Shown one piece after another: positions 36,944-54,605 of a stretch of 64,000 nucleotides of DNA. The notes beneath the pieces were generated by a model. That model did no database searches, had not been told where the DNA came from, and saw only the letters and a list, made by a program, of their open reading frames with translations. A program made the position numbers and the translations under genes. The first letter of the stretch is position 1. Each line of letters starts with the position of its first letter. The stretch comes from Natronococcus sp. CG52 (GTDB lineage: Archaea > Halobacteriota > Halobacteria > Halobacteriales > Natrialbaceae): assembly GCF_023913515.1 (NCBI RefSeq), contig NZ_CP099391.1, positions 1,674,001 through 1,738,000 on the forward strand. Reading direction: 5' to 3'.

Positions 36944-37076
36944 TCGATTACTCGACCGTTCCCGTTCGGTTTCGTAACCGAGACCGCCCGTACACCGTTC
37001 GACGACTAACGCCAAGCCGGAGCCGAAGACGGCCGCAATCGCGGCGATCGGGGGCCGCTCCTCACGCTGATTCGTC

Positions 37077-37200
37077 TATAGCACCAATTGAAACGGTTCA
37101 CACACCGATCGCACTGTGCGCGGTTCTCGCTTGCTTCGCTCGCTCCGACCCGCGCTCCCGTCGTGCGATCGGTGTGCGCTGACTTTCAGCGGCTACTATA
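37077..37200. repeat. Dispersed palindromic repeat, copy B (longest)
   Basis: This copy has TATAG at the left end and CTATA at the right, the outer tips of imperfect terminal inverted repeats. The inner arms CACCGATCGCAC (37102-37113) and GTGCGATCGGTG are exact reverse complements around a GC-rich loop with GCTTGCTTCGCTCGC. Blocks match copies at 879-960 and 60511-60592. It sits in the 842-bp gap 36944-37785. Confidence 0.7.
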
Positions 37201-37450
37201 GTCGCACTCGAACCGCGAAGACAGTACTGATCGGCCCCTCGAACTGCTCGAGCGTCTTTTCGACGACCTCTTCGACGAGACGTTCCGTACCGACCCTTCG
37301 TATCCGAGCGCGACAGGTGACGACCCGCGATTTCGGTGTGACCGTCCTCTGCCCGTTCGTCGACGATCCGTCCATCGAGTTCCGCTCGAGAACGTCCGGA
37401 TACGAGACGTCCTCGCCGGTCTCTGTTTCTTCGGTTTTCACCGTACACAC
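37196..37450 (-). CDS. Possible small protein or gene remnant
   Basis: An 84-codon frame whose last 35 residues (ERLVEEVVEKTLEQFEGP and the following hydrophobic strand) look like real protein. The upstream part has no clear start and a likely frameshift near 37440; a second frame carries MTLEEEQGKRATDRRNFW at 37545. The stop codon falls inside the palindromic repeat, so the 3' end may have been cut by it. I read it as a small hypothetical gene or fragment. Confidence 0.3.
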   Translation of the reverse strand: MCTVKTEETETGEDVSYPDVLERNSMDGSSTNGQRTVTPKSRVVTCRARIRRVGTERLVEEVVEKTLEQFEGPISTVFAVRVRL

Positions 37451-37659
37451 CCCGCAATACCTGTGCCGACGATTGTTCCGCCGGCATCGACCAGAAATTC
37501 CGCCGATCCGTCGCGCGCTTGCCCTGTTCTTCTTCCAACGTCATACGACCGGCGTCCGTCGGTAGTAATGCCCTCATTCAACCACACGTAACGCTAACGT
37601 GAGCGTACACGGGCGCTCCGGTGGACGAAGCGTCGGCCGAGTGAGCGACCGAGGCAGTT

Positions 37660-37740
37660 CATCACACACGTGACAACAACACACCATACACGTATATAAT
37701 ATTATAGTATAAAGAACGGGGCTAATCGTGTTACTTTTAT
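37660..37740 (+). promoter_or_regulatory. A+T-rich promoter of the GT2 gene
   Basis: The run around 37690-37715 (TATATAATATTATAG then TATAAAG) contains several overlapping TATA-like words. The GT2 start at 37786 leaves a leader of roughly 50-60 bases. Confidence 0.4.
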
Positions 37741-37785
37741 CGGTTGGTTCGATGTCAGTTGTCTAAGTCCCCGGACGAATCGTGT

Positions 37786-39069: not shown

Positions 39070-39207
39070 CGTTCCGATCGGTGTAGGGGAACTGTAGAAC
39101 CCCTCTCTAGGAGGAATCGATCTAGATATAAATTGATAGCTTTACTGCCTGTAATAAAAACCACGTTCACCGTCGTCGGTTCTCTACTAGGCGGTGTCGC
39201 GTTGTAA

Positions 39208-39573
39208 TTACCACCAGTCCGGTATCGGCACCCGATCTCTCCACTCGCGCCCCTCGATGTCCCAGTCCCCAGCAGGTTCCGTTAATCCCTGACGGTTGAA
39301 TTCGCTCTTCAGAGCGATCCGTTTACTCACGTACTCTTCGCCGAGGACATTATGGCGGTATCGCAGATATGTTCCGTATGCGAATAGTAGGAACCCGATC
39401 GGAGCCGGGATGATAAACATGCTCCAGACAGCCCCGGTTACGATATACTTCGTCGATTTTCGGTACCGCTCTCCTCGCTTGATCTCTTTCTTGGACCATC
39501 CTTGTTCTTGAAATTGCTTTTTGATCCAATATTCTCGGTACTGCCAGTTCTCTGCGGTCGAGTCTTTCATCAC
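39208..39573 (-). CDS. Small membrane protein, unknown
   Basis: A 121-residue protein with one or two central hydrophobic segments (YIVTGAVWSMFIIPAPIGFL, then LFAYGTYLRY) between Trp-rich polar ends: NWQYREYWIKKQFQEQGW at the N-terminus and WRDRVPIPDWW at the C-terminus. Codons are more A+T rich than in the core genes. I do not recognise the family. It points against the glycan genes on both sides and may be part of the transferred segment. Confidence 0.6.
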   Translation of the reverse strand: MMKDSTAENWQYREYWIKKQFQEQGWSKKEIKRGERYRKSTKYIVTGAVWSMFIIPAPIGFLLFAYGTYLRYRHNVLGEEYVSKRIALKSEFNRQGLTEPAGDWDIEGREWRDRVPIPDWW

Positions 39574-39889
39574 TTATCTAACGATATCCCGAGGTATGTA
39601 ATAAGTGGGCAGGAACAATCCAATTAGTAATGTGTGTATTGTGAATAACGGTCTCGCGTTACGAGCATCATTACCCATGCAATCTTATGGTAATAACGAC
39701 AAATTATACGAATTTATTTGATATTCTATCACCAAACTCCTGTGAACGGTTCTGCGACCAGTATTTCTAAATCGTGTACCAGAGAACGTTTCAAAGGATA
39801 ATATAGTCTCACACCTGACATAAGACATAGTGAATTTATCAGCTGTTAGGCGCGTCATTACAAGGATTTTATTGGGAATACCAAAAACG
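39574..39889. other. A+T-rich gap between divergent island genes
   Basis: The composition is low in GC, with many TAAT and TTAT words that fit promoters for the small membrane protein on the left and the DUF1616 gene on the right. No gene or repeat is supported here. Confidence 0.4.
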
Positions 39890-40906
39890 ATGAGCGGACG
39901 ATCGTCGCGGGGAACTTTCCGGACGTTCCTTCGAGAGTTTCCCGCAGATCTCGGGGCGGTACTCGTACTGACGGCACTGGTTAACGTCTCTACCTTTGCA
40001 CCAGTAGTCCGAGAGACGGCGCTGCGGATCCCTCTCGGTCTCGTGTTTATCCTTTTCGCTCCGGGATACGTCTTTGTCGCGGCTTTGTTTCCCGAGATCC
40101 CGTCGAACGACACTACCGATAGCGGATCAGAGAGCCGGATTTCGAGGGTACGGTCCGAAATGGACTTGATCAAGCGCGTCGCTCTTTCTCTCGGGGTGAG
40201 CATAGCGATCGTCCCGCTGATCGGACTCGTACTGTCTTTCGTGCCGGTGAGTAGCGGGTTCAGGTCGGTCATGGTTGCACTGACCGTATTTACGCTCACC
40301 GTCACGATCGTCGCGGCGATACGAAGACGGGACCTGCCCGAAGAAAAACGCTTTCAGATTCCGTATCGCGACTGGTACGGTACTTGCCGCAGCGGTATTC
40401 TCGAACCGGACACGCGTCTCGATCTGGGCTACAGCATCCTCGTTATACTCTCGCTCGTCTTGTTGCTCGGGGCAGTGTCGTTCGCGATCACCGCCCCGCT
40501 CGAGGACGAGCAATTCTCGACCATCTACCTCCTCACGGAAGAGGAGGAAGACCTCACCGCGAATAATTATCCGACGGAGTTCGCCGCAGGGGAGAGCGAG
40601 GAGTTAATCGTCGGCGTCGAGAATAACGAACATCGGACGGTAGCGTACACCGTGGTCGCTGTCGAACAGAAAGCGGACGTCGTCGACAACCGAACTTCCG
40701 TTACCGAACAGCGGGAGCTCGATCGCTTCGAGACGGAACTCGACCACGACGAATCGTCCCAGCGTACGTACGAATTAGAGCCCACGTTGACGGGTGAGAA
40801 CGTCCGCGTCGTGTGGTTACTGTACGCCGACGGTACCGTGCCCGACGAACCGTCGATGGAGAACGCCGACTACTACGTCTATCTCTGGCTGAGCGTCACC
40901 GAGTGA
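39890..40906 (+). CDS. DUF1616 membrane protein
   Basis: The 338-residue protein has about five membrane helices: two early (VLVLTALVNVSTFAPV, LGLVFILFAPGYVFVAALFP), two in the middle and one near residue 205. An extracellular-type domain of about 120 residues follows (EFAAGESEELIVGVENNEHR). The words FAPGYVFVAALFP and TVYTVV-type beta strands match the DUF1616 family, which is often found in archaeal glycan and S-layer gene clusters but has no known activity. Start ATG 39890 (MSGRSSRGTF) gives a normal N-terminus. Confidence 0.78.
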   Translation: MSGRSSRGTFRTFLREFPADLGAVLVLTALVNVSTFAPVVRETALRIPLGLVFILFAPGYVFVAALFPEIPSNDTTDSGSESRISRVRSEMDLIKRVALSLGVSIAIVPLIGLVLSFVPVSSGFRSVMVALTVFTLTVTIVAAIRRRDLPEEKRFQIPYRDWYGTCRSGILEPDTRLDLGYSILVILSLVLLLGAVSFAITAPLEDEQFSTIYLLTEEEEDLTANNYPTEFAAGESEELIVGVENNEHRTVAYTVVAVEQKADVVDNRTSVTEQRELDRFETELDHDESSQRTYELEPTLTGENVRVVWLLYADGTVPDEPSMENADYYVYLWLSVTE

Positions 40907-41158
40907 CCGGACCGCTCTCGAAACGCTGCGTCACTAGCGCTGGTCTCGGGACCGGGAGTGAAAGATGAGCGCTATCCACACCGACTACTGTCAGCGATAT
41001 ATTTCTAATTTTACTATTGTGGGGAATCGAAGAGTTATCGCTGCTGTCACCGCTCGAACTGTTTCGGAAACGCGTCACTAGTAGCACCCCCTATTTAACC
41101 CTCGACACCGTCGGGCTATAAATGATTCTCCATGGAAAATCGAGATCGTGGGGAAATA

Positions 41159-42406
41159 ATGTCCGATTCAGGTAAAGAGTACGTTCTGGTCACGGAGTAT
41201 TTCCACCCGGATACGGCATCCACCGGCCAATTGATGACGGATCTCGCGGTCGGGCTCAAGGAACGAGGACTGGACATCAAAGTGTATACCGGACAGCCGA
41301 ACTATCACAGCGGGGAAAACGAGAAACAGCCGAGGGTGTCAGTGTACGAGAATACTCCCGTAGTTCGGATTAGCGCTCCACAAGTTCGTCAGTCGTCACT
41401 GATTCGGCGATTGTTTAACTGGACGGTATTCATCTCCTGGATGTTCGTAGTGCTACTTCTCGATACGTCGCGGAACGACCGTGAGGTGGTATTCGTTTCA
41501 ATAACCCCGTTCCTTTCGACGGTGGTGTCGTTAGCCTGTCGGCTCAACGGCTGGGATTACACGTACATCGCGTACGATCTCTATCCGGACCAGGCCGCCG
41601 AGTTGGGATACGTGGCGAAAGGCGGGATCGTCGAGAGGCTATGGCGACGGGTTGAGAATAGCACGCTCTCGAGTGCGAACAACGTCGTAGTCAACGGGGA
41701 ACTGATGAAAGAACGGTTACTCGAAAATTCCGAGGGGCGAGTAGATCCGACCGACGTAAAAATTATACACAACTGGGCAGACGAGGACTTTCTCCGACCG
41801 ATGCCCAAAGAAGAGAATCCCTTCAGCCGAGAACACGACCTCGTCGATCCGTTCACCGTCCTGTACTCGGGGAACATCGGAGAATTCCACGATCTCGAGA
41901 CGTTGATCGAAGCGGCAGCTCGGTTCGACGACGGAGACGTACAGTTTCTCATCATCGGCGAAGGTGACAAGAAGAAGTCGCTAATCCGCCTCGCGGAGTC
42001 CCTCTCTATCCTCGGGGATACCGTAACGTTCCTCCCGTATCAACCGTGGGACGACCTGCCGCACAGTCTCACGTCCGGCGACGTTTCCGTCGTAACGGTC
42101 CAGAAAGGCTTCGAGGGAGTCTGCGTCTCGAGCAAGATCTATTCGGCGATGGCGGCGGGAATGCCGATTCTCTGTATCGCTCAACCGTTCGACGACGAAT
42201 CTCGTCTCGTCGATCAGTTCGACATGGGACTTCACGTCCCGCAGGGAGACGTCGACGGCACCGTCGAAGCGATCGAATCGTGGCGATCGGACGAGAGACT
42301 GTTGCAGAACCAAGGCCGAAACGCTCGGTCGGCCTTCGAGCAGAATTTCACGAAAGACGAGTGTATCGACGATTATTATCAGTTATTGACCGAAGACGGT
42401 CGGTAG
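41159..42406 (+). CDS. GT4 glycosyltransferase (WbuB-like)
   Basis: The 415-residue GT-B enzyme has an N-terminal half with VTEYFHPDTASTGQLMTDLA and TGQPNYHSGENEKQ. The C-terminal half shows VLYSGNIGEFHDLETLIEAA, FLIIGEGDKKKSLIRLAE and the donor-binding GFEGVCVSSKIYSAMAAGMP. That family pattern belongs to WbuB/WcaI-like enzymes that add amino sugars or fucose to lipid-linked glycans. The start is ATG 41159 (MSDSGKEYVLV); an ATG nine codons earlier is possible. Composition is lower in GC than flanking core genes, which suggests acquisition with the island. Confidence 0.87.
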   Translation: MSDSGKEYVLVTEYFHPDTASTGQLMTDLAVGLKERGLDIKVYTGQPNYHSGENEKQPRVSVYENTPVVRISAPQVRQSSLIRRLFNWTVFISWMFVVLLLDTSRNDREVVFVSITPFLSTVVSLACRLNGWDYTYIAYDLYPDQAAELGYVAKGGIVERLWRRVENSTLSSANNVVVNGELMKERLLENSEGRVDPTDVKIIHNWADEDFLRPMPKEENPFSREHDLVDPFTVLYSGNIGEFHDLETLIEAAARFDDGDVQFLIIGEGDKKKSLIRLAESLSILGDTVTFLPYQPWDDLPHSLTSGDVSVVTVQKGFEGVCVSSKIYSAMAAGMPILCIAQPFDDESRLVDQFDMGLHVPQGDVDGTVEAIESWRSDERLLQNQGRNARSAFEQNFTKDECIDDYYQLLTEDGR

Positions 42407-42622
42407 GTCTGCTCACTCGATCTTCGTGCGGCAGTGTACGAACGCGAGCTGGATCGTCTACCTGAGTCGGCGAAACTCCCCTGTCCCGACGAAGGAGAAC
42501 TCGCAACGTCGATCGGAACCGTAGCGCTGTTCGAACCCGTCGAACGGGTGGGAGCGTCGCGTCGATCGTCTCACTCACCGTCCGAACCGAGAGATGTAGT
42601 GATTGCGGTAACTCGGAGACGG

Positions 42623-44569
42623 TTACTCTCGAGACGAGGGTGAATTGATGAAGACGGACTCGGAGTCGTAGATTCTGTTATTCGAGGTTATACACGGGAC
42701 GCGTTCGATTTCGGTGTACCTCTCGTACTCCGCTTGCGCACTCGCCCAATCGGTCGTCTCGCTCTCTCCGTCCTGTTCCAATAGCGGTACGATTAATTGA
42801 CCTCTCTCCTCTAATTCACCGCTTCTGACTAGAAACGGTGTCGTGCAAATTTGATCGGTCTCTTCCACCGTGGTCACGTCTGACCGAGTGGATTGACCGG
42901 TTTCCTCTTCGACTACTTTCGAATACTCGAGAAAGCTCACCGATTGTCTATCACCCGTAACCGTATCGGTGTGGTAGATGCTGAATTGGACGGCGTCACT
43001 CTCCGGTTCCGTGAAATAGTCGCTAAACGTTCCGGTCCGTTCGAGAGGGTTGTCCCGCGTGTACAGGTCGTTAGAATACGTTACCGTCCCCGTCAGGGCT
43101 GCCGTGACGAGGAGGAGTACGAGCAAGGGTTCGGAATGCGTCCGCAATAATTCTACGCAGCCGATGCTCGCAACCAGAACGATCAACACCAAACTGTACT
43201 GTGCCAGCCGCTCGATGCCGATCCGGAGGAATACGTACTGGAGAGGGCCGGGGAAGTATATCGGCGCGGTTACGATTCCCGCGATGACGAGGACGAGTAT
43301 CTTGTGTCCGGTATCTTCGCTAATTTTGAAAAAGCCCGCGATAAATAGTATCAGAATCACGCTACTGTTGGCGAGTGTGGAAAGGACGCCGATGGGCGAC
43401 GAGAACGCGAACCCGCCCTCGGTGGTCGTTCCGGAGAGGAGACTACCGTACGAGAAACTGGCTTCGATTAACTCTACCACGTATCGTGGGATATCGGCGA
43501 GAAGAATGAGGAATAACTGAAGCGAGATCATGATCGCGACGAGGAAAATTACTTGGAAGTGATATCGACTATTCACGACGATATTGTGGAAGTAGCCGTA
43601 ACTGATCCGATCGCCGAAGAGGACGATTAGCAGGACGAACCCGAGCAACACCGAATCGATTTTATGATAAAATGCGATGGAAACGAGAAACGTTACGGAG
43701 AGGATACCGTATCGGAATCCAAAGTTCGTCTGGTTGGCCAGCGCGATCAAGACGATTCCCGTGAGGAAAAGCGATACTCCCGACGCCATCGACCGGGGCA
43801 ACGAGTAGAGTCCGATGTAGTGAAACTGGTGAGTCAAAGAGAGCACGAAAGCGGGAACGAGCGTATACCGATCGGGAATGACGTTCAATTCGCTCGTGAT
43901 CCACGTTATCGCCCATAAACAGGAGACGTACATGATCGCAGAAGTTACGAAAAGCGCCACTCGAGGAGAGAGGACCGTTACGTCTCCGATGATTTTAACT
44001 AGAATGAAATAGTTCGGAAACAAGTCGTATCCGGCTAACGTCGTGAGCTCGTCGGTTCGAAGTGAAATTTCGGTCGAAGCCCACATCCACAGGGTGTCTC
44101 CGGAACCGATATAGAGGGCGTTCGTGAGCGTGGTGGAAAGGTGAAACAGCAAATTGGTGGCGGTGAGACCCACGAGCGGCAACACGAAACGAAACGAAAC
44201 GAGAGAGTAGACGATCGCGAGTGTATTCAGGACCGCTAAGATGACGAAGAATAATCGGGGACGAGGGGCAAATATCGATAGAATCACCGCCGCGCTAACG
44301 GCAACTACGAATGAAAATACAAAAACTGTACCGTTAAATTCGATTTTCTCGAAGGTATTCTCGGTCGGTTTGCTTTCGGAAACAACGAGTTGGTACAAGA
44401 ACGGACAAAGAAACAGCGGTAGAATCGCGTAAGACGCTATAATCGCTATAAACGTCATCTCGAAAGAAAGAAGGACGACAACCGCACAAATTCCAACTAT
44501 CGGACCGAGAACGGCTAGAGCTCGAATCGTTCGATCGACACTCCAGATAGTCCCCCTCATTATCGGCAT
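42623..44569 (-). CDS. Polytopic membrane protein, Wzy/GT-C-like
   Basis: The 648-residue protein has some 12-14 hydrophobic segments up to about residue 490, with a polar loop near residues 150-175 (YIGSGDTLWMWASTEISLRT), then a 140-residue soluble tail. Such topology is shared by GT-C glycosyltransferases and O-antigen polymerases. No decisive DxD motif is visible in the first loop, so I do not choose between them. It diverges from the flippase gene and lies among transferases, so it probably polymerises or transfers a lipid-linked glycan on the outer face. It is clearly richer in A+T. Confidence 0.6.
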   Translation of the reverse strand: MPIMRGTIWSVDRTIRALAVLGPIVGICAVVVLLSFEMTFIAIIASYAILPLFLCPFLYQLVVSESKPTENTFEKIEFNGTVFVFSFVVAVSAAVILSIFAPRPRLFFVILAVLNTLAIVYSLVSFRFVLPLVGLTATNLLFHLSTTLTNALYIGSGDTLWMWASTEISLRTDELTTLAGYDLFPNYFILVKIIGDVTVLSPRVALFVTSAIMYVSCLWAITWITSELNVIPDRYTLVPAFVLSLTHQFHYIGLYSLPRSMASGVSLFLTGIVLIALANQTNFGFRYGILSVTFLVSIAFYHKIDSVLLGFVLLIVLFGDRISYGYFHNIVVNSRYHFQVIFLVAIMISLQLFLILLADIPRYVVELIEASFSYGSLLSGTTTEGGFAFSSPIGVLSTLANSSVILILFIAGFFKISEDTGHKILVLVIAGIVTAPIYFPGPLQYVFLRIGIERLAQYSLVLIVLVASIGCVELLRTHSEPLLVLLLVTAALTGTVTYSNDLYTRDNPLERTGTFSDYFTEPESDAVQFSIYHTDTVTGDRQSVSFLEYSKVVEEETGQSTRSDVTTVEETDQICTTPFLVRSGELEERGQLIVPLLEQDGESETTDWASAQAEYERYTEIERVPCITSNNRIYDSESVFINSPSSRE

Positions 44570-44694
44570 TTCTTACTATTCCGGCTACCATTAAACCGGT
44601 GCCTTGCCATTCTCGTAAGAAATATCGGTGAGAATGATAATAATCTGAATATAATGGTGTAGAATAAAACTAACCGAACACGTCTGTTTTCAAT

Positions 44695-44840
44695 ACGGTG
44701 CCTCGTCCCTTGAGGATTTCGAGGCCCTCGAATCACACCCACTCACTTTCAGAGTCGAGGCTTCCCCGTCACAGCACGTTTGACGCGACGAGGCGCTTGT
44801 AACGAAGCAGGATTTTAACAACGATCGGCCGCTCCCGTAG
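44695..44840 (-). mobile_element. Possible remnant of an IS200/IS605-type right end
   Basis: Two hairpins stand side by side: CCTCG (44701-44705) with CGAGG (44720-44724), and CCTCGA (44726-44731) with TCGAGG (44755-44760), the latter with an inner ACTC/GAGT stem. On the minus strand they follow GTGACGGGGAAGCCTCGA, a word I associate with the 3' ends of haloarchaeal tnpB genes where the guide-RNA scaffold lies. No transposase frame remains. The whole gap 44570-45108 is otherwise A+T rich with promoter-like words. Confidence 0.35.
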
Positions 44841-45108
44841 AAATCCTTTCGAGTCGTGTTCGCCGTGTGAGGTACAATTCTACTGGAACGTATACTAAAA
44901 CTGGAGATACGTATATGAATTAGGCGTATTATTAGTAGCATAGATGTCATTTGGCTCCTATCCTTTTATGGATGGTCGAAGTATTGGCCAAAGGTAGTCC
45001 CTTATACCCTCTCGAAATTTCTCACACCCTCAGAGAATCTGACGAACGGAAAACACCGGATAGCATCCTGAAAATTAGAACGCATTCACGCGAGTAAAGA
45101 GACCGAAA

Positions 45109-46527
45109 ATGGATATTGTCAAGTCCAGCTTCAAGGTGTTAATGGCAAAGACTGCGGGAGCGTTACTCACGTTCGTCGGAACTGTGATCTTTGCCAGGGA
45201 GCTGGGCGCTACCGCACTCGGAATTTTCTTCTTATTTCAAGCCGCTCTCGGCGTATTGGCCGTGCCCGCGGATTTCGGCTTACGGACTGCGGTAGAAAAA
45301 CGTCTCAGTGAGGGACAAACCGGCGATCAGATCTTCACCGCCGGAATCATTCTCAAAACGGTCCCGCTGGGCGCGGTCTCTGTCGGGATTATCGCATTTC
45401 AAGGGACAATAAATGCCTACCTCGGAGCTCCACTGGCGATGTATCTCGTATTAACTCTTATTTTACAGGAATTGGCAGACTTTTCGCTCCGTCTCTTGCG
45501 CGGTGAATTACGCGTCGGCGAGACGTGGTTTCTTCAATTTATCAGGGATGCTGGTTGGGTCGTCGTCGGCATCCCGTTACTGGTTCTCGGCTTCGACGTC
45601 TACGCACTAGTGTACGGATTGTTAGTCGGGTTTACGGTTACGTTCGTTTGGGGGATGCACAAAACGTCGCTCGCGTTTCAGCAGCCCGCCAAACTACACG
45701 TCGACTCGCTCGTTTCGTACGCTAAGTTCGACGTGTTTTCTGGAGTCGGAAAGCAGTTTTATAGCCGAATGGATTTACTGGTGATCGCGATATTTCTTCC
45801 CAAGGCGGCCGTAAGTAGTTACGAGATCGCGTGGCTCATCACGATGGTGGTGATCCTCACCGGAGAGTCGGTCGCCGTAACGATTTTTCCGCAAGTCAGC
45901 GAATGGAGCGCCCAGAAAGCGACCGACAGAATCGAAGCGATCGTTCCCGCCGCGCTCGTCCCCGGCTTGTTGATTTCTATTCCCGCCTTCTTCGGAACGC
46001 TGGTGTTTTCCAGCGAAATACTCGGACTCGTATTCGGGGACGCGTACACGATCGCGTCGGTTGCCCTGATAATACTGATGGGGGAGAAAATACTCCAGTC
46101 GTTCTACGTCGTGTTCGGTCGTTCACTCCGAGCGATAAACAGAGAGGACTTGTCAGCCAAATCGACGATAGTGTCGATCGTAGCTAACCTGATCCTCACG
46201 TTCGTTTTAGTCCCGCTATTCGGTTTGTCCGGTGCGGCGATCGCGACGGCGGTCTCGTTCGGTCTGAACACTATCTTACACGCCGTCTATCTATCCGAAT
46301 TCATATCGATCAGATTTCCTATCGTGGAGGTGGGATGGGCGTTAGTCGCCGCGATCACGATGACGATCTCGTTACTCGCTCTGCGTCACGTCCTCCCGAT
46401 TCAAACGCTCGTAGAGCTACTGCTAGTCATTTCTCTGGGGGCTCTCACGTACACTGTCGTGTTACTGTTGTTCCCTCCGCTGAGAAAAAACGTAATCGTG
46501 CAGGCGAAGCACATACTGGATATTTAA
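45109..46527 (+). CDS. Wzx-like oligosaccharide flippase
   Basis: The 472-residue protein has about 12-14 membrane helices and the MOP/polysaccharide-transport pattern: SSFKVLMAKTAGALLTFVGT at the start, FARELGATALGIFFLFQAAL, PADFGLRTAVEKRLSEG, and in the second half GAAIATAVSFGLNTILHAVY. It should flip lipid-linked glycans from the cytoplasmic to the outer face, as AglR does in haloarchaeal N-glycosylation. It is A+T richer than the core, in line with the neighbouring Wzy-like gene. Confidence 0.85.
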   Translation: MDIVKSSFKVLMAKTAGALLTFVGTVIFARELGATALGIFFLFQAALGVLAVPADFGLRTAVEKRLSEGQTGDQIFTAGIILKTVPLGAVSVGIIAFQGTINAYLGAPLAMYLVLTLILQELADFSLRLLRGELRVGETWFLQFIRDAGWVVVGIPLLVLGFDVYALVYGLLVGFTVTFVWGMHKTSLAFQQPAKLHVDSLVSYAKFDVFSGVGKQFYSRMDLLVIAIFLPKAAVSSYEIAWLITMVVILTGESVAVTIFPQVSEWSAQKATDRIEAIVPAALVPGLLISIPAFFGTLVFSSEILGLVFGDAYTIASVALIILMGEKILQSFYVVFGRSLRAINREDLSAKSTIVSIVANLILTFVLVPLFGLSGAAIATAVSFGLNTILHAVYLSEFISIRFPIVEVGWALVAAITMTISLLALRHVLPIQTLVELLLVISLGALTYTVVLLLFPPLRKNVIVQAKHILDI

Positions 46528-46650
46528 CCGAACGGCGATCGGCGGTACGAGTCGAGCCGATACGCCCAGTGAGACCGCCCGAACTCTCCGCCTATCCGTA
46601 CTCCGTAACTCGCTACCGACCGTTGCCGTCGCCTCGATTCCGGATCGCGG

Positions 46651-48453
46651 TCAATAGGCGGCTTCCCACGACCATTCGAGGTTCTCCGCTCCAGCAGGCG
46701 GTGGTGAGACGTAGTGCACCGTGAGGGTCGACTCGTCCGCCGTCACGTGACTGACGGATCCCGCGTCCTCGGACTGTGGCGTTACGTGGCGAAACCGCGG
46801 GGTACCGACTAACTCGTGGTCGATCGGAAACTCCGACGTACTGCCGTCGCCGCTTCGAACGTCCGTTCCCCGGTTTAGGGTGGTATCCGTGTTTCCACCG
46901 TTGAACGTGACGTCGAAGTAATCACCGTTTCGGGGATCGGCTCCCGCGGGATCCCAGCCGACGTCGCCGTCTCGCATCCACGAGCGGACGAAGATGTGAT
47001 TTCGTTCACCCCCCTGATACGAGACGGCCGCTTCGCCGTTCCCGTGAAGGCTATTGGCGACGATGTAGGAGTCTTTCAGTCCGCTCTCTGCCCCCAGCAG
47101 AATGCCGTGACCGCCGTTAGATTCGGAGCGGAGGTAGCCGACGTGGAGTTCCTGACCGTCCGCCTTCAGGCCGTGGCTATCCCAGTCGGTGACGAGCGCC
47201 TGACCGATCGATACCGGACCGCCGTCGATCTCGACTCCGATATTGCCCGTTCCGGAGTTCGACCCGTTGCCGCGGGCGATCAGTCGGCCGATTCGAGTCG
47301 CTTCCCCGATCTCGAGGCCGCCGCCGCTTCCGCCAGCCTGGAGTTTGACCTGCCGACAGCTGAACTCGTCGTCGACGATCCCGTCCTCGTTATCGACGTA
47401 GACGTAGGTTGCTTCGCCGTGATTGGCGTGCAGCTGAGGGGCGTGATTACTGTAACTGTGGAGGTAGAGGTCGTCGTAATAGCCGTCCCACGAATCGTCG
47501 GTATCGGTATCGTGCAACCAGCCCCGGCCGGCGTGTTCGGCCGGAACGGCCCAGATCGTCGAGTCGTGTGGCCCGCGCCAGACGATGCCGTGGCCGTCTC
47601 CGTTCCAGGCTCGGAGTCTGATCGCGGCTTCCGGTTTTTCCTTTCCGGTCCAGTTCGCGGTCTCTTGCCAGCCGCATTCGCTGTAGAAAGACGTACCCGC
47701 GCAGTTCTCGATAAAGGCCGGGGTGTTCCCGTAGCCGCCTAGGCGATAGTTCTTTCCGTAGAAGGCGACGCCGCCGATCTCGATACCGTCGACCGACGTC
47801 GTCGAACTGCCGCCGTTGTTCTCGCGATTGCCGTAGATGAAGCCGTGGAAACCGAAGTTGTAGGGAACCTCGGTCGGTTCCGTCCCGGAGCGCCAGGTGT
47901 TACTACCGGTGAGCGGATCGAAATCACGTGATTTCACCGCACAGATATTCGCGTCGTCCGCGATCTCGAGGTTCGCGACGAGCGTCACGTTCGATTTGAG
48001 CACGACCGGTGACGAGATCGTGACGAACTCTGACGGCCCGACGACGTAGCTCTGGCCCATCACCGGCGTTGCAGAATGGGCAGCGTCGATCAGCTCGTTG
48101 ACGTCGGCGGCGGTCGATCCGGCGTCGAAAGTCCGCGTATTGTGCGGGCCAACCGCACCGCCGATCGGTTTCGTGTGCGTCGTTCCGCCGGGATCGGTAA
48201 ACGAATCGGTGACGGTAAACGCCCCGACTTTGCGCGTAGCGAGGTTCCACTCCGTTCCGTCACCGTCGTACACGGCTCCCGTGTCGGTGGCGATGAACGT
48301 CGCTCCGACGTGAGGCGTGTATTTCGAGCGAGCGGCTTCTTCATCACGGACGAGGAGTCGCTCCTCGATCGTTTCCATATCGGACGTTCGTCCCCCCTCG
48401 GCGTCGTCCGACTCGTACAAGTTCAGCCGGTGGTTCGGCGTTTTCTCTTCCAT
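46651..48453 (-). CDS. Parallel beta-helix protein resembling a viral tail spike
   Basis: The 600-residue protein has no signal peptide. Residues 1-75 hold a head module (RLLVRDEEAARSKYTPHVGA, TFIATDTGAVYDGDGTEWNL) like those that attach phage-type tail proteins. Residues 140-520 show short strand-turn repeats typical of a right-handed beta-helix (VEIDGGPVSIGQALVTDWDS, LHVGYLRSESNGGHGILLGA). The C-terminal 80 residues (PIDHELVGTPRFRHVTPQS, VHYVSPPPAGAENLEWSW) resemble a trimerisation or capping module of phage tail proteins. It may bind or cut glycans. In a glycan island it could be an orphan glycan lyase or a viral relic. Confidence 0.65.
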   Translation of the reverse strand: MEEKTPNHRLNLYESDDAEGGRTSDMETIEERLLVRDEEAARSKYTPHVGATFIATDTGAVYDGDGTEWNLATRKVGAFTVTDSFTDPGGTTHTKPIGGAVGPHNTRTFDAGSTAADVNELIDAAHSATPVMGQSYVVGPSEFVTISSPVVLKSNVTLVANLEIADDANICAVKSRDFDPLTGSNTWRSGTEPTEVPYNFGFHGFIYGNRENNGGSSTTSVDGIEIGGVAFYGKNYRLGGYGNTPAFIENCAGTSFYSECGWQETANWTGKEKPEAAIRLRAWNGDGHGIVWRGPHDSTIWAVPAEHAGRGWLHDTDTDDSWDGYYDDLYLHSYSNHAPQLHANHGEATYVYVDNEDGIVDDEFSCRQVKLQAGGSGGGLEIGEATRIGRLIARGNGSNSGTGNIGVEIDGGPVSIGQALVTDWDSHGLKADGQELHVGYLRSESNGGHGILLGAESGLKDSYIVANSLHGNGEAAVSYQGGERNHIFVRSWMRDGDVGWDPAGADPRNGDYFDVTFNGGNTDTTLNRGTDVRSGDGSTSEFPIDHELVGTPRFRHVTPQSEDAGSVSHVTADESTLTVHYVSPPPAGAENLEWSWEAAY

Positions 48454-48625
48454 TCCTAATCTACTACAAAAAACGGCGGCGGGCGAGCCAATAGGTATAC
48501 GTCATCGTTATGAGAACCCAATACGATATTAAAGATCCCCGGATTCGGGACTACTATCGTACGTGCACGCCAATTTCGTCGTGTAGCGGCCGGAGGAGCG
48601 TCGATGATCGAAACGGGGTGACTCG

Positions 48626-49645
48626 TCACCTTTTATGCAGTAGTTGGTGAAGATTATCAGATACGTCCGATCTCTCTCGGTTCTCTCGATACCAGTCGAC
48701 GGTGCGTTCGATTCCGTCACTGAGATCGTACTCCGGTTCCCAGTCGAGTAATTCGTTCGCGCGCGTACTGTCTGCGGCTCGATGACGAACTCCGACCGGT
48801 TTCTCCGTCCGGTAATCGATTTCCTCGGGACGCCAGTCGAGCGAGTCGAAGATAGCCTCCACTACGTTATTGACGGAGATGTAGTCTGGAACACCGGCGT
48901 TGACGGGCGTACCGTCGGTGACGTTTTCGGCAGCCAGGCGAAGAGCGCTCGTGATATCCTTCACGTACGTGAAATTCCGCGTTTGCTCTCCGTCTCCCCA
49001 GATTTGGAACGGGTCCTGCTCGGCGTACGCCTTCGCGATTAGCGCGACTATCGCGTGCGTTTCGTTCTCTCGAGGGCCGTAGGCCGTGAAAATACGAACG
49101 ATGCTGGCGTCGATGTCGTACTGCTCTTGGTGAGCCTGGAGCGATCGTTCGCCCATGAGTTTAGCCCATCCGTACATCTCGTCGGCGAACGCGCCACCTC
49201 GCTCTTCGAAACTCACCATCTCTTCGCGCAGCGGTCGTTTTTCCTGTTGGATATCGGTCGGATAGACGCACGCACTCGAGGCGAACGTGATACGATCGAC
49301 GTCGTTCTTCGCCGCCGTCTCGAAGACGATATTATCGAGCGCCATGTTCGTCGCGCAGTTCGCGGGATGGTTCGAAATGTACCCCCGTCCCCCGTGGTCG
49401 GCGGCGAGGTGAAACACCGTGTCCACGTCCGAAGTCGCTTCCGAAGCGAAGTCCCAATTTTTGAGATCGCCTTCGATGATGGAAATTCGGTCTTCGACGG
49501 CCGAGAGGTGGTCGCGTTCCCCGCTCGAGAAATCGTCGGCGACGACGACGTCCGCACCTTCCGCTACTAGGTCTTCGACGAGATACGAACCGATGAAAGA
49601 GGCGCCTCCCGTTACCAGAACCCGTTCTTCTGTCCAATCGATCAT
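48626..49645 (-). CDS. SDR sugar epimerase/dehydratase, GDP-mannose 3,5-epimerase-like
   Basis: The 339-residue extended SDR has VLVTGGASFIGSYLVEDLVA as the NAD loop, AADHGGRGYISNHPANCATN in the position where GDP-mannose 3,5-epimerase has AADMGGMGF, SSACVYPTD, and YGWAKLMGER with the catalytic Tyr and Lys. Its C-terminal part holds VRHRAADSTRANELLDWEP. It modifies a nucleotide sugar for the island glycan; the exact reaction is inferred from the motif only. It reads on the minus strand with the next epimerase upstream, 360 bases apart. Confidence 0.82.
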   Translation of the reverse strand: MIDWTEERVLVTGGASFIGSYLVEDLVAEGADVVVADDFSSGERDHLSAVEDRISIIEGDLKNWDFASEATSDVDTVFHLAADHGGRGYISNHPANCATNMALDNIVFETAAKNDVDRITFASSACVYPTDIQQEKRPLREEMVSFEERGGAFADEMYGWAKLMGERSLQAHQEQYDIDASIVRIFTAYGPRENETHAIVALIAKAYAEQDPFQIWGDGEQTRNFTYVKDITSALRLAAENVTDGTPVNAGVPDYISVNNVVEAIFDSLDWRPEEIDYRTEKPVGVRHRAADSTRANELLDWEPEYDLSDGIERTVDWYRENRERSDVSDNLHQLLHKR

Positions 49646-50005
49646 TCGTCCTCACCTCGACCCGGGCGTGTAGCACGGTTGAGAGAGGGAAGTTCTACCA
49701 CTGGCGAGGTGATTTTCGTCGCCACGCTCGTGCCGGTATCTACTGGACGTTCCATCACAGGCCCCTACTCGGATCATTCACTGTTTTATTATGTGCGTAC
49801 TACAAGACCGCGGGAAAATTCCGCGCGTGTATGTGGGATCTAAATCCGGTATTGTCCCGTAAGAAACCGTAATCCGTCACGGAAACGTAAAGTTGCGTCA
49901 AGAGAGCGGAAACGCAACCCGTTCCACCGCGGTTAATAACTGGTAGAACAGGCAAAACACGGAAGATTTCGTACACGTATGCGACTGCGGGTCTATAGTT
50001 CGTAG
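49646..50005. other. Gap between two epimerase genes
   Basis: No gene is supported. CGCGG, GAAAATT, CCGCG near 49812-49828 forms a small hairpin that may terminate the upstream epimerase transcript. A+T-rich words near 49780 (TTTTATTAT) could be the promoter of the downstream epimerase on the minus strand. Confidence 0.35.
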
Positions 50006-50929
50006 TCATATTTCGCCTACGAGTCTGCGAGCGGCCCGTTCGACGGCCTCGTCGCTCGACTGATCCGGTTCCCATCCCGTCGCGAGGAGTTTTTCGGTAG
50101 AGAGACGCATCCGCCTTACATCCCCGGGCCATCCTCGTTCGGTACCGGTGTACTCGTATCGAGGGTCCAAGCCCATTACGTCGGAGACGATATCCGCGAT
50201 CTGGTTGACCGACGTGGTCGTCCCCGTACCGAGATTGAACGTGTTTACGGGATCGCCTGTCCGGTCGATGACGTGTAGCATCGCATTGATACAATCGCTA
50301 ACGTACATGTACGACTTCTCCTGGCGACCGTCACCGAGAATCTGCAACCGATCGGGGTTCGTAGAGAGTTTCTCGATAAAATCGGGAATGACCGCGCCGC
50401 GAAGGCGCGGCCCGATTATATTCGCGAACCTGAAATTCCAAACGGTGAGGTCGTTCGAGTGGGCGGTAGCCGATAGTAGCCCCTCGTCCGCGAGTTTGGA
50501 CGCTCCGTAGACGCTAATCGGTTCCAGCGGCCCGAAGTCTTCCGGCGTCGGGTTCGGCGCTTCGCCGTACACCGTCGACGAGGAGGTGAATACGATCTTC
50601 GAAACGCCGACGTCCGCCATCCGCTCGAGTAGGTTGTACGTCATCCGGCTGTTCTCCTCGAACTGTCTTCGCGGGTTCGGCGAGTTGACGACCTTCGACG
50701 CCGCTAAGTGGTATACGATATCGATAGTGTCGGTGAGCGCCGACTCCGCCGTCTCTCGCTCGGTAAGATCACCGTTTACGAACGTCGTCTCTTCTGGCAT
50801 CCACGTCCTCTCTCCGTGGGACAAGTCATCGACGACGGTCACAGAATCTCCTCCTCTGACGAGTCGTTCGGCGAGATGAGAACCGATGAACCCCGCTCCT
50901 CCGGTAATCAACGCGTGGTCGTTACTCAT
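50006..50929 (-). CDS. SDR NAD-dependent sugar epimerase (UDP-glucose 4-epimerase type)
   Basis: The 307-residue protein has ALITGGAGFIGSHLAERLVR, the acidic VVDDLSHGERT, HLAASKVVNSPNPRRQFEEN, TSSSTVYGEAP and YGASKLADEGLL with catalytic Tyr and Lys. It ends with the substrate-binding block RMRLSTEKLLATGWEP. This is the extended SDR form used for UDP-glucose/galactose 4-epimerases and uronate epimerases. Start ATG 50929 (MSNDHALITGG) gives the family N-terminus. It is one of three distinct SDRs in the island. Confidence 0.85.
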   Translation of the reverse strand: MSNDHALITGGAGFIGSHLAERLVRGGDSVTVVDDLSHGERTWMPEETTFVNGDLTERETAESALTDTIDIVYHLAASKVVNSPNPRRQFEENSRMTYNLLERMADVGVSKIVFTSSSTVYGEAPNPTPEDFGPLEPISVYGASKLADEGLLSATAHSNDLTVWNFRFANIIGPRLRGAVIPDFIEKLSTNPDRLQILGDGRQEKSYMYVSDCINAMLHVIDRTGDPVNTFNLGTGTTTSVNQIADIVSDVMGLDPRYEYTGTERGWPGDVRRMRLSTEKLLATGWEPDQSSDEAVERAARRLVGEI

Positions 50930-51346
50930 AACTATAGATTCATCAGGTGAGAAGTAATGTATTATTCTTCGATACCTGGGATATTTAGCCGACAATAATG
51001 ACTTTGAATATCACGTACGTAATTGTCACTTCTCCGCCGTCACTCTCCTTACCGTGTGCCCGTCGATGCGCGACGCGGAGAATCACGGTAACCACGGGGA
51101 CGGCGACGACGGTAGACCGTCAGCGAAAGAAGAGCTACGAGAAACTGGCTATCGGCGTTCATCTTCTCTCACGACGATGTCGAGGGCTGTCCCCCCAGTT
51201 GGGCCCGCGAGCGGCTTACCCGTCTCTGATCGGGCACCGTGTAGAACTGTGCTAAACTATGCCAATACGTGATTTCTCGAGAACAAGACCGATATATTCG
51301 TTTAACGGTACCGACAAGCTATTTTGCGTCGTACTGAGGGTCCGGC
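50930..51346. other. Gap between divergent epimerase genes
   Basis: The middle is GC rich without a supported gene. Near the right end GATATATT (about 51291) and TTTAACGG are TATA-like, and would start a transcript about 30 bases before the next ATG. Left-side A+T-rich words near 50960-50985 may serve the minus-strand epimerase. Confidence 0.35.
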
Positions 51347-52270
51347 ATGCGAAACAAGCGACTCCTCGTAACCGGCGGGGCGGGATTCATCGGGTCGAAT
51401 CTCGCGAATCGGCTAGCCGGCCGAAACGACGTGATCGCGGTCGACAGCGGGTACCTCGGAACGCCCGAGAACCTCAACGATCGAGTAGTCTTCGAGGATC
51501 GGAGCGTTCTCGCCGAGGATCTGCCGACCGACGTGGACGTCGTCTTTCACCTCGCGGCGCTCTCGTCGTACGGGATGCACGAGCGGGATCCGACGACGGG
51601 AGTACGAGTCAACGTCGAGGGGTTCGTTAACACCGTCGAACAGGCCCGGGACGACGGCTGTGATACGGTCGTCTACGCCTCGACGTCGTCGATCTACGGC
51701 AGTCGAACGGAACCTTCGCCGGAGGACACGGAGGTGTCGGTCCACACCGGGTACGAGGCCTCGAAACTCGCTCGAGAGAAGTACGCGGAGTACTTCGCGA
51801 ACCATTACGGGATGCGCCTCGCCGGGCTGCGGTTCTTCTCGGTGTACCAAGGGTATCACGGCGCGGAAGAACACAAGGGCGTGTACGCGAACGTCATCGC
51901 GCAGTTCGCGGACGACATCGCCCACGGCCGGTCGCCGCGGATTTTCGGCGACGGCACCCAGACCCGCGACTTCACGCACGTCGACGATATCGTTCGCGGC
52001 ATCGAACTGGCCGCAGAGCACCGATTGAACGGGGTCTACAACCTCGGAACGGGCGAGGCCCACGAGTTCAACGCCGTCGTCGATCAGCTCGCCGAGGAAC
52101 TCGACGCCGACGTCGAACCGGAATACGTCGAAAACCCGATTCCGGGGCAGGTGTACGTCCGCGATACGTGCGCGGATCCGACGAAGATGATGAACGCTAC
52201 CGGCTGGGAACCGCGGGTGAGCTTCGAAGAGGGAATCCGGCGCGTGTGTGGGCCGTACCGGGACTCGTAA
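51347..52270 (+). CDS. SDR NAD-dependent sugar epimerase
   Basis: The 307-residue protein starts MRNKRLLVTGGAGFIGSNLA, has VIAVDSGYLGTPENL at the acidic turn, HLAALSSYGMHERDP, YASTSSIYGSRTEP and YEASKLAREKYAEYF with catalytic Tyr and Lys, and DPTKMMNATGWEPRVSFEEG near the end. It is a nucleotide-sugar epimerase or dehydratase of the 4-epimerase group. Twelve bases separate it from the Gfo/Idh/MocA gene, so the two form an operon, probably consecutive steps on one sugar. Confidence 0.85.
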   Translation: MRNKRLLVTGGAGFIGSNLANRLAGRNDVIAVDSGYLGTPENLNDRVVFEDRSVLAEDLPTDVDVVFHLAALSSYGMHERDPTTGVRVNVEGFVNTVEQARDDGCDTVVYASTSSIYGSRTEPSPEDTEVSVHTGYEASKLAREKYAEYFANHYGMRLAGLRFFSVYQGYHGAEEHKGVYANVIAQFADDIAHGRSPRIFGDGTQTRDFTHVDDIVRGIELAAEHRLNGVYNLGTGEAHEFNAVVDQLAEELDADVEPEYVENPIPGQVYVRDTCADPTKMMNATGWEPRVSFEEGIRRVCGPYRDS

Positions 52271-52282
52271 CACCTCCCCACG

Positions 52283-53341
52283 ATGAAGGAGCGATACAAC
52301 TTCACGGAACGCGATTGGTACGAACCCGTCGACGGCGGCCCGGTTCGTATAGCCGTCGTCGGCACGGGACGGTTCGCCTGTCGCCGAGCACTTCCCGCGA
52401 TTCGAAAAACGGACCTGTGCGAGGCGACGATCGTGGTCGACCTGTGGTCCGAAAAAGCGCGGGCGGTAGCGGAGGCGTTCGACGTTCCGAACTGGATCAG
52501 CAGTGACGAGTTCAAAGCTGGAGTCGCGGTCGAGACGTACGACGCGGTGTACGTTGCCACGCCGAACGCGTTTCACCTGCCGTACGTGGAGGCTGCGGCT
52601 CGATTCGGCAAATCGGTTCTGTGTGAGAAACCCCTCGACGTGAGCATCGATCGAGCCGAGCGAATGGTTCGGATCTGCGAGAGAGAGGACGTGATGTTGA
52701 TGACGGGATATCGGATGCAGACGGAACCCTTCATCAGACGCATGCGCGAACTCGTCGCGGACGGATTCATCGGCCAGCCGGTTCACCTCACCGGTAAATT
52801 TTCCAATTGTATAGATACCGACGGTGGCACGATACGGTGGCGAAACGATCCGTCCATCGCGGGTGGCGGTGCACTGATGGATCTCGGAATCTACCCGTTG
52901 AACACGATCCGGTTTCTACTGGGACGCGATCCCGTCCGGGTGTACGGGTCCACGGCGTCGAACCACCTGGCGTTCGAAGAGGTCGACGAGCACGTGGCGT
53001 TTCAGTTGCTGTTCCCCGATAGCGTGGTCGCGTCCTGTACCGCCAGTCTCAACGCGTATCCGTCGAGCCGACTCGAGATATACGGTACCGAAGGAGAGAT
53101 CCAGATAACGTCGGCGTTCGGCGGCATCGCTTCGGAAGAGATCGTCGCGGAGCGCGACGGCACTCGAATCGAGTACGCGGGTCCGCCGGTCGACGAAGTG
53201 AGAGAAGAGTTCGACTACTTCGCGTACTGTCTCCTGGCGGATCAGAAACCGGAACCCAGTGGAAAAGACGGCGTCGCCGATCTGGTGATCATCGAGGCGA
53301 TATACGAATCCGACGAGAGGGGGAGACCGATTTCGCTGTAG
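52283..53341 (+). CDS. Gfo/Idh/MocA dehydrogenase (Gfo6-like)
   Basis: The 352-residue enzyme opens YNFTERDWYEPVDGGPVRIA, close to haloarchaeal glucose-fructose oxidoreductase 6 (D-xylose dehydrogenase type). It has VVGTGRFACRRALPAIRK as the NAD(P) fold, YVATPNAFHLPYVEAAARFG, SVLCEKPLDVSIDRAERM with the catalytic EKP, and GGGALMDLGIYPLNTIRFLL. Within the island it could instead oxidise a nucleotide sugar at C3 or C4. It is the second gene of a two-gene unit with the SDR upstream. Confidence 0.85.
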   Translation: MKERYNFTERDWYEPVDGGPVRIAVVGTGRFACRRALPAIRKTDLCEATIVVDLWSEKARAVAEAFDVPNWISSDEFKAGVAVETYDAVYVATPNAFHLPYVEAAARFGKSVLCEKPLDVSIDRAERMVRICEREDVMLMTGYRMQTEPFIRRMRELVADGFIGQPVHLTGKFSNCIDTDGGTIRWRNDPSIAGGGALMDLGIYPLNTIRFLLGRDPVRVYGSTASNHLAFEEVDEHVAFQLLFPDSVVASCTASLNAYPSSRLEIYGTEGEIQITSAFGGIASEEIVAERDGTRIEYAGPPVDEVREEFDYFAYCLLADQKPEPSGKDGVADLVIIEAIYESDERGRPISL

Positions 53342-53522
53342 GTGCGACGGAGAGAACCGATCTCCCGGTCGCGGGACCATCTGGGACTCTCGAGCCGTTC
53401 CAAATCGCGGCGACCGCGTCCCGAGGTTCCTGACTCTCATCAAAATATGGAGTTAACGCGGCGGGACGCTCAAAACGCCTAATTGGGCGACGGGAAAACC
53501 GGGACACTCCGGGGTCGAAATC

Positions 53523-53867
53523 ATGTCACGGGGAATAACACACTTCGCTTTCGGCAGCACCGTCACCGCGATCATCGTCGCTCTCGTTCCCGACGTTCCG
53601 TATCCGCGGACGCTCGTCCTCGTGGGCGGCGCGTGGGGACTCGTTCCCGACGCGGTGAAACTCGTTCGCCACCCGATTCTGTCGACACTCCACGAGGGTC
53701 CGATAGCCGACATGTTCTGGTTCCACCGTACGTTCGATCGGTTCGACGTCGCCGACTCCGTCGGGCTCGCGAGCGTATCGCTGGCGATCTTTATCGGCGT
53801 CACGTCGATCCTCGAGCGGCGGTCCTATCGGGCACCCGAGACGGTTCGCGACCGGGTACCCGACTGA
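53523..53867 (+). CDS. Small membrane protein of the YdjM/DUF457 type
   Basis: A 114-residue protein with the N-terminal pattern GITHFAFGSTVTAIIVALVP, where the His after the first turn and the later Asp in GLVPDAVKLVRHP recall the metal-dependent hydrolase fold of the YdjM family. Two or three membrane helices are visible. The size is shorter than full YdjM, and only part of the metal site is evident. The function is unknown. It is preceded by a GTCACGGGG-rich gap without clear promoter. Confidence 0.6.
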   Translation: MSRGITHFAFGSTVTAIIVALVPDVPYPRTLVLVGGAWGLVPDAVKLVRHPILSTLHEGPIADMFWFHRTFDRFDVADSVGLASVSLAIFIGVTSILERRSYRAPETVRDRVPD

Positions 53868-54155
53868 CCGACAGCGAAGCGCGGTCGCCTCCGGAGAACA
53901 GCGACGGATCGGATTCCGGCGATTCGTGTCTCTGGCCGTAAGACAGAGTCACGAGTACTGATTGGGTAGTAGCTGGAACCCCGAGACTCTCCCTCGTCCG
54001 ACCGATCACGCCCCGCCAAACCGTCTGAACCCCCCGCCGGCGACCAGTTCCCGACCGTCTCGACGTCCGGTACCGACGGAACGGTGCGAAAACGGTCAGG
54101 AATTACTGATAATTCGGAGAACGTTTTACGTGTGTTCGTGGAATGCGGGGGTACT

Positions 54156-54605
54156 ATGACCGAGTTTGGCGCAACGTACGTCCCGAAGGTGTGCGCCTAC
54201 ATCACCCGCAACGAGCGAGAACTACTCGTGTTCGAGGGGCCCGAACACGACGGGCTGCAGATCCCGAAGGGGACGATCGAAGCCGGCGAATCGAGACTCG
54301 AGGCGCTGCGACGAGAGGTCAGGGAGGAAAGCGGTCTCAAGACGCTACGAGCGGTCCGGCACGTCGCGAGCGACAGTTGGATGCGCCAAAAATCGCCCCC
54401 GCGGTTCTACAGACGCCACTTCTTTCACGCATCCGTCGACGGGGCCCCCGACGAGTGGACGCACGCGGTTACCGGCGAGGGCGCGGAACGCGGCTTCGAG
54501 TTCGAGTTCTCCTGGCAGGAACTCCCGCCGAATCGCGAATTCGCGATGGCACTCGACGACTACGTCCACCTCGTCGAGCGGTCACTCTCGCGGACCGATC
54601 GGTAA
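54156..54605 (+). CDS. NUDIX hydrolase
   Basis: The 149-residue enzyme has a complete NUDIX box: GTIEAGESRLEALRREVREE continued by SG (about residues 39-60), matching G-x5-E-x7-REUxEExGU. It hydrolyses a nucleoside diphosphate linked to another moiety; the substrate is open. A TATA-like CGTTTTACG at about 54123-54130 sits 26-33 bases before ATG 54156, which implies a leaderless transcript and supports this start over an ATG 24 codons upstream. Confidence 0.88.
   Translation: MTEFGATYVPKVCAYITRNERELLVFEGPEHDGLQIPKGTIEAGESRLEALRREVREESGLKTLRAVRHVASDSWMRQKSPPRFYRRHFFHASVDGAPDEWTHAVTGEGAERGFEFEFSWQELPPNREFAMALDDYVHLVERSLSRTDR

Follow-up and report, generated by a model that had tools for sequence, protein, structure and literature searches.

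The window, a stretch of 64,000 nucleotides of Natronococcus sp. CG52, carries on its minus strand a gene for a spike-like protein of 600 amino acids (46651..48453; 600 codons from an ATG start), delimited by its open frame and by a full-length homologue in Halorussus vallis. Alignment of the window with a genome of the same genus (G001) runs to 35682 and picks up again at 54534, with the intervening island absent there; alignment with a further genome (G008) picks up again at 54174. GC content is 0.47-0.58 over most of 37-46 kb versus ~0.61-0.66 in most of the flanks. From the alignment gap in the two genomes and the lowered GC, we conclude that the spike gene sits in an acquired glycan island of ~18.5 kb, with approximate borders at 35683..54173.

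We scanned ten genes of the neighbourhood, from 37.7 to 56.4 kb, with Pfam. To the left of the spike gene lie a family 2 glycosyltransferase (37744..39069, plus strand, PF00535), a DUF1616 protein (39830..40906, plus, PF07760), a group 1 glycosyltransferase (41132..42406, plus, PF00534), a membrane protein of 648 amino acids (42623..44569, minus) and a flippase (45109..46527, plus, Polysacc_synt_3). The 648-aa protein matched no Pfam family, and its position and hydrophobicity suggest that it may be polymerase-like. To the right lie three NAD-dependent epimerases (all PF01370), one directly upstream of the spike gene on the same strand (48626..49645, minus) and two farther on (50006..50995, minus; 51347..52270, plus), followed by a Gfo/Idh/MocA oxidoreductase (52283..53341, plus, PF01408); the right flank of the island is a methylmalonyl-CoA mutase gene. 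With two glycosyltransferases, a flippase, three epimerases, Gfo/Idh and DUF1616 around the spike gene, the surface-glycan setting proposed in the earlier note stands. So does its statement that viral genes are lacking nearby: the surrounding genes are of glycan or metabolic type, Pfam found neither tail nor capsid families in the ten, and no cluster of virion structural genes surrounds the spike gene. The island genes are missing in nearly all of 33 loci beside the mutase gene in related genomes.

The protein itself lacks an export signal. The highest hydropathy mean over 19 residues is -0.17 in residues 1-60 and 1.18 over the full length, the frame can be prolonged by no more than 16 codons before the ATG, and neither check revealed a signal or a hydrophobic N-terminus, as the earlier note had also claimed. 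Searches of Pfam (up to E 1), PHROGs, NCBIfam and PDB sequences assigned it to no family, and no pectinase or pectate-lyase profile matched in Pfam at the same limit. The protein is modular, with a head of ~75 residues, a body and a C-terminal block.

The head consists of two halves. The first (residues 1-33; 48355..48453, minus), as judged from alignments and head comparison, is a docking half of a variant type without the conserved W, and residues 15-33 form a helix in the model. The second (residues 34-75; 48229..48354, minus) resembles, by model and fold search, the small beta unit of Mtd and hyaluronidase fibres and is a probable trimeriser. The head model, built on 32 rows, has a mean pLDDT of 69, with 85-89 in the decades covering residues 31-70. 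In a Foldseek search against the PDB, phage hyaluronidase fibres and Mtd occupied the top rows, none of them significant (best E 0.13). VIA-align placed the model on Mtd with Z 3.8 and an rmsd of 1.7 over 41 residues within 34-75; collagen XV/XVIII trimerisation domains stood next to Mtd among its rows and, these being single-chain models, give a hint of a trimer. In a fold search of BFVD, the best hit (1.7e-3) fell short of E 0.001, and searches of PDB sequences with head and C-terminal profiles gave nothing significant.

The C-terminal block (residues 526-600; 46654..46878, minus) is of phage tail-protein type, matching the end of a tail protein of Bacillus phage Eldridge (Herelleviridae) at E 7e-7 and an uncultured phage at E 1e-7. 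The same block also ends beta-helix-like proteins that have no head (L055 9953-11509, L056 9955-11502, L047 8238-10133, L048 7881-10223), of which L056 belongs to the window genome itself.

Between head and block, the body (residues ~96-525; 46879..48168, minus) is probably a beta-helix, with a counterpart only in H. vallis among the loci searched. The single-sequence AlphaFold model of the spike protein, at pLDDT 32, does not prove this fold. When the window and H. vallis bodies were compared by hhalign with 15 other bodies, the best alignment had 4% probability and E 0.01, over the expected N-cap, and the best of 16 shuffled controls reached E 0.04. Since recognised beta-helix bodies in the same test were linked mostly through N-terminal caps or as close copies only, the miss of the window body says little either way. 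We found no viral relatives of the body, neither in phage records, beyond the C-terminal block, nor in viral contigs. Thus, of the tail-spike architecture described earlier, the head and the C-terminal block are viral in type, but the beta-helix is not confirmed; the structure prediction and fold search proposed as a check led likewise to phage fibres in the top rows for the head, though without significance, and to a full-length model of low confidence.

The only full-length relative found lies on the H. vallis plasmid NZ_CP100001.1 (L103 and L165 in this analysis), in another family, with 50.5% identity over 96%, and it too is surrounded by a glycan cassette. Among the loci compared, the H. 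vallis cassette holds by far the closest copies of the window flippase (64% vs 43% for the next best), the group 1 glycosyltransferase (63% vs 26%) and the 648-aa protein (49% vs 26%), and the best copy of one epimerase, that upstream of the spike gene (77% vs 72%). The match is partial: the family 2 glycosyltransferase is 63% identical over half its length, with other loci aligning further at 52%; DUF1616 has closer matches elsewhere; Gfo/Idh reaches 26%; no counterparts of two window epimerases were matched in the H. vallis locus; and gene order differs between the cassettes. A full-length relative in a matching cassette of another family supports co-inheritance of the body with the glycan cassette.

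The head has followed another course. Between the two spikes, 31/70 residues are identical in the head, 223/427 in the body and 42/75 in the C-terminal block. The window head is closer (57-61%) to the heads of L133, L135 and L031; a four-round search detected no homology between their bodies and that of the window protein. The H. vallis head resembles a different set of heads more closely (72% to L096). From these identities and the differing nearest heads, we read the two sequences as a case in which heads were exchanged while body and cassette stayed together. The gene could also be a decaying passenger, a captured spike that arrived with the island and has no present use; its docking half has lost the W, and no partner gene of the kind described below lies in the window. 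However, the frame of 600 codons is intact, the body is still identical at more than half of its positions across families, and comparison with the 574-codon H. vallis homologue gives a pN of 0.34, well under the pS of 0.62 (dN/dS ~0.35 by hand Jukes-Cantor conversion), which argues against mere decay and makes this reading unlikely.

In a comparison with 149 relatives, the spike protein was matched in 28 genomes including its own, and outside its own genome at its ends only. The head, for which we found no name in Pfam, PHROG or NCBIfam, defines a family of its own. With a profile of 20 heads, the family was found in 108 of 392 haloarchaeal genomes of the order; the window head matches this profile at E 9.8e-32 and the profile with A1 at E 9.3e-27, being itself among the building sequences in both cases; compared as a single sequence, it matches L031 and L032 at E 1e-22. 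Head proteins generally begin with the head: in 53 of 71 gene calls, it starts at residue 7 of the called protein or earlier. The family thus lacks signals, and the closest relatives are not all signal-bearing, pectinase-like enzymes, the outcome that the earlier note had said would count against it. A Pfam scan of 61 head proteins drawn from these 71 gene calls returned Peptidase_S74 in eight, Polysacc_lyase_14 in seven, Beta_helix in six, pectate-lyase-like families in six, and Polysacc_lyase and Mtd_N in two each; none of the Peptidase_S74, lyase, Beta_helix or Mtd_N families matched the window protein (P0001).

Head genes are frequently found among glycan genes. A glycosyltransferase together with a second kind of glycan gene occurs in 33 of 65 head loci versus 1 of the 33 mutase-flank loci (Fisher p 8e-7), controls that represent one chromosomal site, mostly in one family, and are not a random sample; the 65 exclude viral loci and seven headless loci retrieved through weak or C-terminal-block matches. 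By the same test, the other 32 head loci are not glycan loci. A general hot spot of spike exchange at the single site beside the mutase gene is not supported, as a head occurs in only 1 of the 33 mutase-flank loci (L238) and the site lacks the island in near relatives. In three other genomes (L037, L041, L042), a different head gene stands with glycan genes beside the same mutase.

Several arrangements of head genes were observed besides. Pairs of head genes face each other convergently in L040 (7538-10162), L107 (9516-12135) and L109 (8528-12022), and also in L140, L142, L143 and L145; where named, these are Haloarcula, and one Tat-signal partner (see below) stands behind one of the two genes. 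The pairs are possibly a recombination or inversion arrangement. Two loci of one genome (L114 and L115 on G340 C1, at distances of ~17 kb and 48 kb from its two ends) are syntenic copies of a single region; the head gene is intact in one copy, and its frame is split in the other. Either a duplication or assembly redundancy would account for them.

The head is also found in virus genomes. Two scans of viral contigs gave five loci with a head, including L164, where the match spans just 22 residues. Head genes occupy tail-gene positions on viral contigs and in one provirus-like locus. In L051, the head gene is the second after a tape-measure gene, close to neck and major-head genes, and the genes of L095 form the same set; a terminase accompanies the head in L094; in L093, Baseplate_J is followed by a head and then by a protein weakly matching Mu gp48; and in L163, Baseplate_J is followed by a baseplate-type protein and the start of a head-like fibre. 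The baseplate-type protein of L163 has tblastn matches in 246 phage records, several of them annotated as baseplate protein. A setting within a virion structural cluster is thus found for relatives (L051, L093, L094, L163). In the loci found here, heads on haloarchaeal chromosomes or plasmids are far commoner than heads on tailed-virus contigs. With a head that occurs on viral contigs and a Herelleviridae-type C-terminus, the window protein is made of tail-fibre parts and is kept with the cell's own glycan cassette, in keeping with the earlier idea of a captured viral spike. Such a spike, released or displayed, might act as a decoy that occupies the cell's own glycan and blocks viruses using the same receptor. 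An architecture of the spike type and a tie to a single glycan cassette would fit a protein competing for that sugar. However, no virus with this body was found, there is no sign of release, and the polysaccharide-lyase parts in relatives point to cutting rather than occupying; we regard a decoy as improbable, on a par with a decaying passenger.

Haloarchaea export many proteins via Tat, and a signal-less glycan-acting protein beside surface-glycan genes poses an annotation puzzle. About half of the head family offers a candidate answer. A recurring neighbour of the head gene encodes a twin-arginine signal, often with a lipobox, then a GYGG motif and a C-terminal tail such as DDYGEQGYGQYGYGG, which ends shortly before the head gene. 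We found an adjacent same-strand Tat-like frame with aromatic-glycine repeats at 38 of 72 heads (33 upstream, 5 downstream) versus none of 593 control genes, taken from the same loci at >3.5 kb from the head. The Tat rule is our own simple one (RR and then an uncharged stretch), and the YG motif was chosen on these loci and widened for the 38/72 count after they had been read. A stricter motif gave 30/72 heads versus 8/717, and the reversed motif 1/72 versus 3/717. Of the 34 heads with no detected partner, one (L105) carries the motif in another scan. In 16 loci on contigs whose lengths match none of the first set, the motif of this other scan lies within 100 bases of the head in eight (L138, L140, L142, L143, L149, L151, L152, L157), and L147 and L160 also have such a partner; none was found in L139, L156, L158, L159, L161 and L162, two of which have little upstream sequence. 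This pairing of head and Tat/YG partner is what is new here. A search at the level of titles and abstract openings, with most subscription papers and bioRxiv preprints outside its scope, returned no published account of the head family, the YG-tail partner or a docking system.

The viral loci hint at what the tail might do. In L163, the baseplate-type protein upstream of the head-like fibre ends in a YG-rich tail, STYGYSEFGYNENGYGGVW, and, as a looser case, the gp48-like protein after the head in L093 begins with aromatic-glycine repeats. From this one viral contig and the looser case, the YG tail may be a docking peptide for the fibre. In L033 (8854-10789), the head gene stands behind a Tat frame with GWG repeats instead of GYG, which suggests that dock type and tail type vary together.

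For the window gene, the partner is missing in cis: reading the neighbourhood frames revealed no Tat/YG gene beside the head. The nearest heads of the window head keep the W that it lacks. Among variant-type heads, L134 is flanked by a Tat/YG gene. The window genome (G000) contains only two heads, that of the window and one on contig C2 (C2:126262; L062), and the latter has its own small Tat/YG frame before it (L062 ~9457-9731). GYGG-coding sites in this genome number 70 (34+36), about as many as sites of a reversed-pattern control (34+39), and no convincing Tat/YG protein that could serve the window head in trans was found among 69 GYGG frames read; two GYGG sites on C2 beside the second head, read separately, do encode a Tat/YG protein. 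A spike with neither signal nor cis partner could work in the cytoplasm, acting on lipid-linked glycan intermediates, or could leave the cell only by lysis. However, about half of the heads family-wide pair with Tat-signal partners, and relatives contain polysaccharide-lyase parts, so that we consider a cytoplasmic role slightly less probable again than a decoy.

The docking half itself appears to be mobile. The dock motif (DWHxPLNENF) stands near the C-terminus of signal-less proteins in L160, L161, L305, L306, L312 and L313, and L162 may be another such protein. Short head genes are followed by a signal-less beta-helix or pectate-lyase-like gene in L157 and L147. A 716-aa protein in L301 (5642-7792) has three tandem N-terminal docks, each with a coiled-coil-like spacer after it. 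In L305 (3471-5597), a partner of 77 amino acids, made up almost entirely of a Tat signal and a YG tail, sits upstream of a protein whose C-terminus is a complete head. Proteins in L160 (6159-8126), L161 (6972-8120) and L313 (3678-5645) are signal-less, without a Pfam match and glycoside-hydrolase-like by eye; they end in a dock and a coiled coil and, in L160 and L313, stand behind a Tat/YG lipoprotein.

A gp19 tail-tube-like gene stands beside the head in L049 (9377-11052), L059 (9332-10180 and neighbours), L053 (2691-5322), L057 (527-2161) and L060 (8868-10369). The head proteins there have, by eye, an S74-like C-terminus; a Tat/YG frame lies downstream in L049, L053, L057 and L059; and no sheath family was found in the genomes of L049 and L059 (G039, G081). 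Tail-sheath (PF04984), tail-tube (PF06841), Baseplate_J and PhageMin_Tail families are all absent from the window genome, and over 392 genomes the presence of a head is unrelated to that of a tube or sheath. We therefore rejected a contractile-system fibre for this strain, and the idea of a device released by lysis, raised in the earlier note, is not supported on the same grounds. The genome does hold a terminase gene (C1:2543700-2544347; L319), a sign of a probable provirus elsewhere in the strain, at a site with neither of its two heads. The least probable of the readings is a fibre carried by a virus or a contractile injection particle and directing it to cells with this glycan: heads in tail-gene positions and the five gp19-adjacent loci fit it, but the strain lacks the particle families, heads co-occur with tubes or sheaths no more than by chance, and neither head lies at the terminase.

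We tentatively favour, at a little under even odds, a different explanation: the spike gene encodes a surface-acting glycan protein, an enzyme or a lectin, built of viral-fibre parts, inherited with the cassette whose product it acts on, and exported through a head-bound Tat/YG partner. The head would bind the YG tail much as a fibre binds its baseplate. The folded, signal-less protein would then cross the membrane through Tat together with the partner and stay at the surface, where its body would bind or trim the cell's own glycan. In the window strain, such a partner would need to work in trans; the small Tat/YG protein beside the second head on C2 is one candidate. Because no Tat/YG gene accompanies the window gene and its dock is a variant without the W, we hold its glycan role more firmly than its export route.

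A broader proposal, to which we give distinctly less credence, is that haloarchaea turned the baseplate-fibre joint of viruses into a general surface-docking system. A YG-tailed Tat carrier would lead out of the cell any folded, signal-less glycan enzyme or lectin with a W-x-PLN-x-NF dock and hold it at the surface, the dock suited to the host's carriers and the body to the cassette, and the window gene would be a swapped spike. We infer from the sequences that a viral fibre joint has been put to new use in exporting and displaying proteins that lack a signal and mostly act on glycans. If the joint works in this way, it would constitute a virus-derived surface scaffold with a logic comparable to that of cohesin and dockerin, and one signal peptide could serve many folded passengers. 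It would also explain how spike-like proteins can be inherited with the sugar coat on which they act, and would link surface-glycan exchange with virus receptors.

These parts have parallels in known systems. Phage fibres with an Mtd/hyaluronidase-type N-terminus (Bordetella phage Mtd, streptococcal phage HylP) have, by model, the same small beta unit as the second half of the head and, like the head family, glycan-acting bodies and no signal. The fold scores of the window head are weak, however, and the head family differs in an extra docking half with the motif DWHxPLNENF and in being encoded in cellular glycan islands without particle genes close by. Beta-helix tailspikes with a C-terminal cap share the order of head, probable beta-helix and phage-type C-terminal block, but the window protein is kept with the cell's own glycan cassette and its beta-helix is only probable. 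As in the haloarchaeal contractile injection systems described in PMC11566945, a few heads adjoin a tail-tube-like gene; unlike those systems, the window genome has no sheath and no tube.

Known Tat hitchhiker cases are typically redox enzymes. Their pairs likewise consist of a signal-less folded protein beside a Tat-signal protein, as in about half of the head family; unlike them, the head family comprises glycan-type proteins and a short YG tail, and beside the window gene such a neighbour is missing. Export as heterodimers is stated for some Tat substrates in PMC10924467. Cohesin-dockerin scaffolds likewise combine a mobile dock (N-terminal, C-terminal or in tandem) on many enzymes with a carrier bearing the matching tail. 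No cohesin or dockerin match was found by Pfam in the partners and head proteins scanned, and in contrast to those scaffolds, the dock and tail described here are of viral type.
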